From: Pseudomonadota bacterium
GTDB taxonomy: Bacteria > Desulfobacterota > Desulfobacteria > Desulfobacterales > RPRI01
Reading direction: 5' to 3'
Assembly (NCBI GenBank): GCA_018901125.1
Contig: JAHIFE010000056.1
Location: 1 to 64,000, forward strand
Length of the DNA: 64,000 nucleotides
A model generated the notes under the pieces. It was not told the origin of the DNA, did not search any database, and worked only from the letters and a program-made list of their open reading frames with translations. This document shows, piece after piece, positions 4,186-18,050 of this stretch. The stretch's first letter is position 1; every line of letters starts with the position of its first letter. A program made the position numbers and the translations under genes.

Positions 4186-4917
4186 ATGAAATTGTCAGAC
4201 AACAGGAAAATCATATTTTCAGCAATTATTATTTTTATGCTATTCTCAATCTTGTTTCTTTTTAGTTGCAGCGATAATACTACCCAAAAAAAACCTGAGT
4301 TTGCAAAATTAAACTTTCCTGAAAGTTTTACATTTTTTGAGCTGGGATCAAATACCGTTTTATCTGAGATGATGATAAAGAAGCTTTCTGAACAGCTTGG
4401 GTCTTCTGCTGTTGAAAAAATGGGCACACTCGATCTTTCGTTGCGTGACAAGATATTTTTCAATCAGAACTTTCCTAAACTTTATGAATTAAACATGAAA
4501 TTAAATGATGAAACCGGAGCAAGAGTTGAACATAATATAACAAATCTGATTTTCAGATATCCGGAAAATGCAAACACCCCCTTTGATAATATTAAACTGG
4601 TTTTTTCAAACCACACAAACAAACCCCTGCTGTTTTCTATTACATCAAGAAAAAAGGAAGGCGATATTGTCGATATTTTGAAAGATAAATATGGCGCGCC
4701 CCTTTTGATCAAATGGAATGACGGCAAAAGTGCATCTTCGGCATGGGAAATAAATAATGATTTTTTGATATTTTCTGCAATTTCAGCAGGAGGGAACTTT
4801 AAATACAGTATAATGATTTACTTCGTAAACAATATAGAATATCTTCTTAAAACTGAGCAGAAGGCAATTGAAAAAAAGGCGGCGGAGAGAAAGAAGGCGG
4901 GACAAACGGCGTTTTAA
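4186..4917 (+). CDS. Putative lipoprotein of unknown function
   Basis: From the ATG at 4186 (GAGG about 12 bases upstream) the product is about 243 residues with a basic N-terminus, a hydrophobic segment and a lipobox ending in FLFSC near residue 25, so it should be lipid-anchored. The mature part is mixed alpha/beta with a Lys/Glu-rich C-terminal tail (EKKAAERKKAG). I recognise no domain. The frame is open upstream of 4186, overlapping the previous gene, but a start there would bury the signal peptide. The neighbouring transglycosylase suggests an envelope role, which is weak inference. Confidence 0.7.
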   Translation: MKLSDNRKIIFSAIIIFMLFSILFLFSCSDNTTQKKPEFAKLNFPESFTFFELGSNTVLSEMMIKKLSEQLGSSAVEKMGTLDLSLRDKIFFNQNFPKLYELNMKLNDETGARVEHNITNLIFRYPENANTPFDNIKLVFSNHTNKPLLFSITSRKKEGDIVDILKDKYGAPLLIKWNDGKSASSAWEINNDFLIFSAISAGGNFKYSIMIYFVNNIEYLLKTEQKAIEKKAAERKKAGQTAF

Positions 4918-7211: not shown

Positions 7212-7287
7212 AACTTTTTTACAAAACAGCCAAATATAAAGAGTTTTATAGATGTACTTTAAGCCATGATCAGGAGGTTTTGTCTTG

Positions 7288-8355
7288 ATGAAATATCTTG
7301 TGCCTTTGTTCAGGAAGCTAAGTTTAGCTGTTGTGTTTTGTTTCGGATTGAATTTGTCAATCGGATTGGCGGCTGAACAGGCGACAGGTGTGGGAACCCC
7401 CAGCGAAGCTTCTATAAGCCCGAAGAACTCCCCCAAGATTCAGTTCGAGGAATTCTATTTTGATTTTGGAAAGGTTTCCCAACATAAGCCGCTTGAGCAT
7501 GTATTTGTATTTAAGAATATAGGCACAGGAGTTTTGCTCATTCAAAATGTGAAAGCGGGCTGAGGCTGTACAGCGGCCCTGGCTTCTGCCAAGGAAATTC
7601 CCCCGGGAGGGGATGGAAAAATTAAGGTCACCTTTAAGACAAGCAACAAGTCAGGAGAAAGGACCCAGATAATCACCATCGCCACGGATGATCCTGAAAA
7701 TCCGGTCATCCGGCTTAAGGTCCGTGCAGAAGTCGAGGTAAAGCTGGAGGCAAAACCGGACAGGATTAATTTCGGCCAAATAAAGAAAGGAACCGAACCT
7801 CTGCCACAATATGTATCGCTTAATGGAGAAGATAAAGATACGACTGAAATCCTTTCAGTATCGTCCAAGAACAAACATATAAAAGTAGAAATAGCTTCTC
7901 CTGATTCCGCAGATAGGCATAAACCCCAGCGTGTCAAAGTCTCTGTCTTGCCTGGCATGGAAGTCGGCAAATTCATGGATAAGATCACCATTAAGACCGA
8001 CCATAAAACAATGGAAGTGCTAAGCGCTACTCTTTATGGAGAAGTTATAGGAAATATAGCGGTAATTCCTAATTATCTATCCTTTGGTATGTTCAAAAGG
8101 GGTGAGAAACATGAAAAATCCGTAAGACTGAGGTCTACTCCGCGTGTGAGCTTCAATATCCTGGATGTAAAAAGTACTACTCCCGATGTTAAGGCCAAGC
8201 TTATAACCATTAAGGAGGGTTTCGAATATATGGTTCAGGTTTCAACGGATGAAAATTTTAAGGGCAATTTTTTAAGTGGAAAAGTCCTTATAACCACTAA
8301 CGAACCGGACCAGGCCGAGATTGAAGTCAAGGTTTTCGGAAGAACTTTTCCATAA
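7288..8355 (+). CDS. DUF1573 protein with in-frame UGA, candidate selenoprotein
   Basis: The ATG at 7288 follows AGGAGG by ten bases and a signal peptide (about 1-27). Residues about 50-130 match DUF1573 (FDFGKVSQHKPLEHVFVFKN), a family normally carrying a conserved S-C-G-C-T. Here codon 92 (7561-7563) is TGA, giving VKAG-UGA-GCTAA, so the stop falls exactly on the first Cys of the CGC motif. The same frame stays open for 263 more codons to 8355, with two further Ig-like beta repeats. The best reading is selenocysteine insertion; a recent nonsense mutation or sequencing error is the alternative. A stem of CCCTGGC/GCCAAGG with one mismatch at 7577-7594, and a second hairpin at 7597-7614, lie where a bacterial SECIS would sit. 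Function of the family is not settled; it is periplasmic. Confidence 0.72.
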
Positions 8356-16667: not shown

Positions 16668-18050
16668 CTATTTGGAACCGGAAGTTGATTTGGCGTCATT
16701 GATTTTCGATGTTATGTTGTTTACTATCCATGAAGCATCTAACCATTCTAAAGGATTTACAAATACATTATTTACAAGCATGCTGAAATGCAGGTGGTCT
16801 CCAGCGGCAAGGCCGGTTTTACCCGAACGTCCTATCGTATAATTTTTTTCTACAATCTGACCTTTTGTAACATCGGAACTGCTCAGATGCCCATATAAGC
16901 TGAAAAGGCCGAAGCCGTGATCAATAAGCACCATTTTCCCATAAATTCCAAAATCTCCGACATATACAATCTTTCCCTTGTTTGCCGCAGGGATAGAAGC
17001 ACCGGCAAGCGACGCCAGATCAATTCCCTGATGAACCTGGCTGTCTACAAGCTTGCCATTATAATTATAATCTCTGTAGTCGGCAAAAGAAGCCTTATTT
17101 GTAGCATTCGGAAAACTTACAAAAGCACCTTGCCAAAACATTTCCTTTTCAGGGTTTTGTATAAGTTCTTTTAATTTGTTATGGTTTGCAACCCGCATCT
17201 CCCGGTTTATTTTAATATATTTATCCAAAAGAGGGTTGCTTGAATTCGGGTCAACAGCTATATCGAATTGCGGCACAACTGCATTAAGGAATGCATCGGA
17301 AATATTGATTGAATCTTTTCTGAATTTGCGATCCTTGATGGTTAGATTAAAACCTCTTTTAGCAATGTTACCTGCCTCGTCAACCGCCGAAGCGTATATT
17401 TCAGTACCCGGTCCCTTGTCATATTCAAGAGCATAAAAACAAATATATATATTTTTATCCGGAAAAAATCCGCTATAGCCGGGGAAAAAATTCCCTCCGG
17501 CATAAACCCCGTTTTTCTCACATGGTTCTGATAATCTGTATATTTCAACACCGGTACCGCCCTGATTTATATATTGTGTTCCGCTTAAAACGTCTATTTC
17601 AGGCCGTTTCGTATCAATAGTAATTTCTTTGTCAACAGCAGTAGTGTTTCCGTTCCACCATCTGCTCCAGGAATAGTCCCATGCAGACAAGCGAAATAAG
17701 GCTTTCCCGTCTGTAATTCCAAGTTTTGACGGCTCAATAGTAATATTTAATGTATCTTTATTAATACCTGCCCCAAAAAAGGAAGCCTTAGGATATTCTT
17801 TTTCAATCAAGACAGTCTGTTTCCCATCTTTTACAATCTCAATTCTAATCTTGCGCAATCCTCTTTTCTGGTCGGTAGCCGAAATGACGACATCTTTTGA
17901 AGCTCCGATTGATATTAATTTAGTTGGGCTTTCAACAACTATAACAGGACATTCCCTTTCCATGTTAAAAACTAAAACCCACAGAGCGGGAATTAAAAAC
18001 AAGCCAAACAAAACAATCAAAATAACCTTTAAATTGATTTTACTTTTCAA
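16668..18050 (-). CDS. M23-family metallopeptidase, membrane-anchored
   Basis: The 460-residue protein has one N-terminal transmembrane segment (about 9-29), a long beta-rich region with Ig-like character (about 35-245), and a C-terminal M23/LytM domain (about 330-445). Zinc ligands are visible: H340 and D344 in HQGIDL, and H419/H421 in GDHLHF. This suggests an active D,D- or L,D-endopeptidase acting on peptidoglycan crosslinks in the periplasm. It heads the minus-strand gene series that runs through thpR and recA to alaS. Confidence 0.87.
   Translation of the reverse strand: MKSKINLKVILIVLFGLFLIPALWVLVFNMERECPVIVVESPTKLISIGASKDVVISATDQKRGLRKIRIEIVKDGKQTVLIEKEYPKASFFGAGINKDTLNITIEPSKLGITDGKALFRLSAWDYSWSRWWNGNTTAVDKEITIDTKRPEIDVLSGTQYINQGGTGVEIYRLSEPCEKNGVYAGGNFFPGYSGFFPDKNIYICFYALEYDKGPGTEIYASAVDEAGNIAKRGFNLTIKDRKFRKDSINISDAFLNAVVPQFDIAVDPNSSNPLLDKYIKINREMRVANHNKLKELIQNPEKEMFWQGAFVSFPNATNKASFADYRDYNYNGKLVDSQVHQGIDLASLAGASIPAANKGKIVYVGDFGIYGKMVLIDHGFGLFSLYGHLSSSDVTKGQIVEKNYTIGRSGKTGLAAGDHLHFSMLVNNVFVNPLEWLDASWIVNNITSKINDAKSTSGSK

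Follow-up and report, generated by a model that had tools for sequence, protein, structure and literature searches.

Does the single TGA that interrupts a DUF1573 gene in the 64,000-nucleotide stretch of DNA analysed here (the window) encode selenocysteine, and if so, what does the gene add to the selenoproteins already known? The gene lies on the forward strand at 7288..8355, from an ATG at 7288 to a TAA at 8353-8355 (355 residues plus stop), and its sole in-frame interruption is the TGA at 7561-7563, codon 92, after which the frame stays open for 263 sense codons, just as the original prediction had read it. The chance of a stop-free run of that length is about (61/64)^263 = 3e-6. A ribosome-binding site, AGGAGG at 7272..7277 (+), is placed 10 nt before the ATG and also 7 nt before an alternative start, the TTG at 7285. 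Automatic annotation would break the gene in two, leaving a fragment of 92 codons and a headless ORF of 135 residues. Taken as a whole, the locus is best explained, with high probability on the comparative evidence given below, as encoding an exported DUF1573 selenoprotein of a long subfamily: the ribosome would decode the UGA at 7561-7563 as selenocysteine using SelA, SelB, SelC and SelD of the cell's own, a cis-acting two-hairpin element directly downstream of the UGA would direct the decoding, and the first of the Ig-like (ASH/PapD-like) domains of the exported product would display the U-G-C pair at a turn between strands. The assignment of selenocysteine, which was the core of the original prediction, draws strong comparative support from the sel genes, from the alternation of UGA and Cys in one alignment column, from continued coding past the UGA, and from covarying hairpins.

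The same prediction presented the gene as a candidate for a new selenoprotein family, and this part is not supported. DUF1573/OS_HP2, with UxC and UGC motifs, has been tabulated as a selenoprotein since 2008 (PMC2398784), DUF1573 (OS_HP2) reappears in selenoprotein reviews of 2022 (PMC9312934) and 2026 (PMC13188914), and the curated NCBIfam model NF041425 bears the name "OS_HP2 family (seleno)protein"; the window gene thus joins a known kind of selenoprotein. It shares with OS_HP2 the domain, the position of the UGC, the existence of Cys homologues (whose Cys aligns with the U that opens U-G-C) and a distribution mostly in sulfate-reducing Desulfobacterota, but the window protein, at 355 residues against about 240, is longer and falls in a separate, well-supported branch, and in its gene the UGA and the PPGG motif lie one codon further apart. 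Against NF041425 the window protein scores 94.2 bits, under the cut-off of 100, and other long members score 86-95 bits; judged by this model, the window gene is classed with a sister branch and not as a member of OS_HP2. The source genome (4.45 Mb in 241 contigs, 98% complete) also encodes two paralogues over the cut-off, a short OS_HP2 Sec form at C183:43353-43646 (139.9 bits) and a Cys form at C13:37029-37319 (134.4 bits). What is additional here is that the gene falls in a long, less studied sister branch just under the NF041425 cut-off and shows an RNA signal of unusual clarity. What had been an entry in a table (DUF1573, UGC) becomes a case with more than 100 Sec genes compared, Cys forms as natural controls, and an RNA element that covaries.

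The N-terminus encoded by 7288..7377 (+) is hydrophobic and probably a signal peptide, with a predicted N-terminal helix at 4-32, which suggests export of the product. The DUF1573 domain follows at 7438..7734 (+), matching PF07610 over residues 51-149 with 101.6 bits against a gathering cut-off of 26.1; the TGA thus lies within the stretch matched, which continues past it, and the local motif is A-G-U-G-C-T. The model of this domain has a pLDDT of 93.8 and shows an ASH/PapD-like Ig sandwich, in which U-G-C occupies a tight short turn between two strands. Its best match in the PDB is 2qsv, at TM 0.83, followed by HYDIN/CEP192 domains. The solved DUF1573 relative 2qsv is without the CGC motif, so the fold does not need U-G-C, and the pair would add a function to it.

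U and Cys may plausibly act in the periplasm as a selenol/thiol redox pair on this Ig-like (ASH/PapD-like) domain, which would make the protein an Ig-like fold bearing a Sec-based redox pair. The best working analogue may be CsgC (PMC3173608), whose Ig fold carries an invariant CxC with an E0' of -139 mV and redox activity; no claim of membership is made. CsgC and nDsbD (PMC3173608) offer a parallel in that their Ig-like beta sandwiches are periplasmic and hold two Cys close together where a loop meets a strand; the differences are that neither a sequence match nor a top fold match links them, that the window domain is ASH/PapD-like, and that it uses Sec. The domain model's 50 best PDB matches include neither CsgC nor nDsbD. 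The alternative that survives best accepts a real selenoprotein but has U-G-C bind a soft metal or a sulfur species (e.g. Cu, Hg, polysulfide), with no thiol-disulfide exchange. The ASH/PapD-like fold usually serves in binding or as an adaptor, and no redox enzyme adjoins the gene in most genomes. The redox-active CxC on the Ig fold of CsgC (PMC3173608) is a precedent for the opposite view, and two features of the motif itself also speak for it: U sits at the first, nucleophile-like position, and the Cys two residues on, in the place of a resolving Cys, is kept in 55 of the 56 UGA forms. Exchange of U and Cys at a single position, as seen here, is moreover typical of catalytic thiols. We consider metal or sulfur binding unlikely, if deserving of serious thought, and prefer the redox reading. 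Gene neighbours, at short- and long-branch loci both, are conserved too little to show a pathway; priA was identified by eye upstream in 23 of 57 short-branch loci. Of eight long-branch DUF1573 genes examined, four have, as read by eye, a gene for a small putative lipoprotein as their upstream neighbour in opposite orientation (L243:7647-8195, L244:2369-2911, L245:2422-2976 and L249:5776-6330).

PF07610 is present in 52 of 59 relative genomes. In the aligned single-domain DUF1573 genes of these relatives, the column of the window TGA, where the U of U-G-C would be encoded (7561..7563, +), holds UGA in 55 of 71 genes and Cys in the other 16, which is the alternation of UGA and Cys among homologues that had been proposed as a check. 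Named Desulfobacterales loci scored at the column gave 71 UGA and one Cys (n=72), named records showing the order to be Desulfobacterales, and a homologue occurs in 337 of the 389 genomes of the order, most of them, among the matches listed, with one TGA. One UGA form (L093, G058:C39) keeps U but reads U-A-S instead of U-G-C, its second Cys gone.

The closest orthologue of the window protein, L206, comes from another order, is 53% identical over 353 residues, and has the UGA too. Full-length relatives are rare in the gene's own order (one Sec form, in G288, and Cys forms in G005 and G123); other orders of the phylum have many, mostly with UGA and at no more than 53% identity. In a tree built by a quick method, the short OS_HP2 branch stands apart from the long branch (98% SH-aLRT), and the window gene pairs with L206 (99). 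With its nearest relative in another order and the near absence of relatives from its own, horizontal transfer is suggested, another order of the phylum being the probable source of the window gene. Exchange between Sec and Cys requires 13 changes on the tree, at least four of them forced by well-supported branches. The Cys copies of G422 fall inside the Sec clade. Comparison of lists by eye showed selA in all genomes of the phylum with a UGA form except G425, G553, G651 and G761, and these four have clear tRNA-Sec genes (74-77 bits). The Cys-only genomes G422, G478, G602 and G643 had no selA, and no tRNA-Sec above about 51 bits, the false-positive level at which other tRNAs are seen in that search.

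Between the window protein and L206, amino acid identity is 57% before the UGA and 55% after it, and third codon positions change more than the other two. After the UGA, dN is 0.33 and dS 1.67 by the Nei-Gojobori method, with dS near saturation. By this comparison the frame is under purifying selection downstream of the TGA, as expected of a selenoprotein gene in which coding continues past an in-frame UGA. Such conservation bears on the possibility that the UGA is a genuine stop, giving a functional 91-residue product with occasional read-through. Selenocysteine decoding always yields some truncated product, so a short form would be made to some extent in any case. Yet termination here would cut inside the DUF1573 domain, at the end of a strand, the 263 residues downstream are as conserved as the part upstream, and the Cys orthologues are uninterrupted; a functional stop is therefore very improbable, and decoding as selenocysteine is favored.

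Two hairpins follow the UGA. H1, at 7577..7594 (+), has a seven-column stem (arms 7577-7583/7588-7594) and a 4-nt loop, UUCU at 7584-7587, that starts 20 nt past the UGA; six of the seven pairs form in the window, with one C.A mismatch. H2, at 7598..7614 (+), has a six-column stem (arms 7598-7603/7609-7614) and a loop, CGGGA at 7604-7608, that starts 40 nt past the UGA; five of its six pairs form, and its energy in the window is -7.1 kcal/mol. These conserved, covarying hairpins coincide with the stem-loops earlier picked out from the sequence at 7577-7594 and 7597-7614, which had been described, correctly, as neither one perfect. Compared with synonymous recoding, the minimum free energy of the downstream RNA has a mean z of -1.64 in 56 UGA forms and +0.10 in 16 Cys forms (p = 1e-5), with a weaker contrast in the long branch alone (-1.13 versus -0.19). 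Because the sequences are related, the z values make them look more independent than they are, a weakness that affects the comparison with Cys forms and the slid-partner control described below to a lesser degree. In short-branch UGA forms, the fraction of H1 pairs formed is 0.844, against 0.515 for the synonymous null and 0.467 in Cys forms, and the corresponding values for H2 are 0.847, 0.594 and 0.575. Both hairpins are weak or absent in Cys homologues. Covariation in the 56 short-branch sequences amounts to 30 cells changed on both sides, every one of them in H1 (shuffles, 12.1); the long branch has 15 such cells (shuffles, 5.3), with 95.7% of cells paired. Slid partners gave 0-10 such cells. 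In alignment A5, H1 shows 13 cells changed on both sides, and H2 has 99% of cells paired, with an exchange of U-A to A-U. The consensus fold from RNAalifold recovered both H1 and H2; an Rfam search of the window returned no match. A natural conversion of Sec to Cys was observed in the MAG AlinenLipids_bin-9448, where the Cys copy L153:2116 occurs together with Sec copies L181 and L185: this recent Cys copy has a mismatch in the H1 stem, and the stems of L181 and L185 are intact.

That the TGA is a sequencing error for TGC or TGT, or marks a decaying pseudogene, would be a natural concern for a contig from a MAG, but the same TGA recurs in independent genomes, including those of orthologues L206-L212, the frame past it is under purifying selection, and behind it comes the RNA element found specifically with TGA forms; the probability left to such an artifact is negligible.

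The bacterial SECIS model calls for a loop of 3-9 nt, a stem of 4-16 bp, G in the first two loop positions, and a distance of 16-37 nt from the UGA (PMC13188914). H1, with its 4-nt loop and 20-nt spacing, agrees with the consensus in hairpin, loop, stem and spacing, and its loop UUCU has no G in the first two positions. H2 carries the loop G but starts 40 nt past the UGA, outside the 16-37 range, and overlaps the Pro-Gly-Gly codons, so the G residues of its loop are partly fixed by the protein. All 106 short UGA forms and 20 of the 23 long ones have a hairpin of the H1 type 16-37 nt from the UGA, and G is found in the first two loop positions of H1 in 31/106 and 13/23, respectively. DUF1573 genes thus resemble canonical cases in having a stem-loop directly 3' of the UGA with fitting stem and loop sizes, but differ in that the H1 loop usually is without an early G and that, about 40 nt off, there is another conserved hairpin, whose loop is rich in G. 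Some selenoprotein genes do not fit the SECIS model, and distinct classes may exist (PMC13188914). We put forward tentatively, as a proposal more apt to fail than to stand, that DUF1573 genes represent a distinct SECIS class of two tandem hairpins, in which the near H1, usually lacking the loop G, would set the spacing and SelB would read the far G-loop hairpin or both, and that the long multi-domain branch, found in several orders, constitutes a separate selenoprotein subfamily below the cut-off of the curated model. The non-canonical tandem hairpin offers a concrete test of whether bacteria have more than one SECIS class.

A bacterial selenoprotein requires selA, selB, selC and selD, and all four are present in the source genome: selA at C132:24283, selB at C97:68903-70798, on the window's own contig just past the window end, tRNA-Sec (selC) at C66:30459 (76.1 bits, UCA anticodon), and selD at C63:3594-4520 (G000, L047). 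The search for these genes suggested in the original prediction thus had a positive outcome, and neither of the counter-signs it named that were looked for, a lack of sel genes or stops accumulating in orthologues, was encountered. Reassignment of UGA to another residue such as Trp throughout the genome, for which no support was found, has next to no probability, given a full Sec pathway with a UCA-anticodon tRNA-Sec, Cys rather than Trp as the aligned residue, and a six-frame scan of the whole window (about 50 main ORFs) that found no second convincing isolated frame with one internal TGA.

The source genome has a single selB/tRNA-Sec pair. Some Desulfobacterales (G018, G021, G024, G025, G031, G056 and G057) have a second selB beside a second tRNA-Sec. 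In the two genomes checked, G021 (C31, L050; tRNA 4739-4832) and G057 (C1, L095; tRNA 17101-17192), the anticodon of the second tRNA-Sec is UCA, and the PF07610 matches near the second selB/selC that show no stop have ordinary Cys codons; recoding of a sense codon as Sec in those genes was rejected for these reasons. An in-frame UGA is also found in the selD gene of the source genome, and 20 nt after it comes a canonical G-loop hairpin, so this genome probably makes use of UGA decoding.
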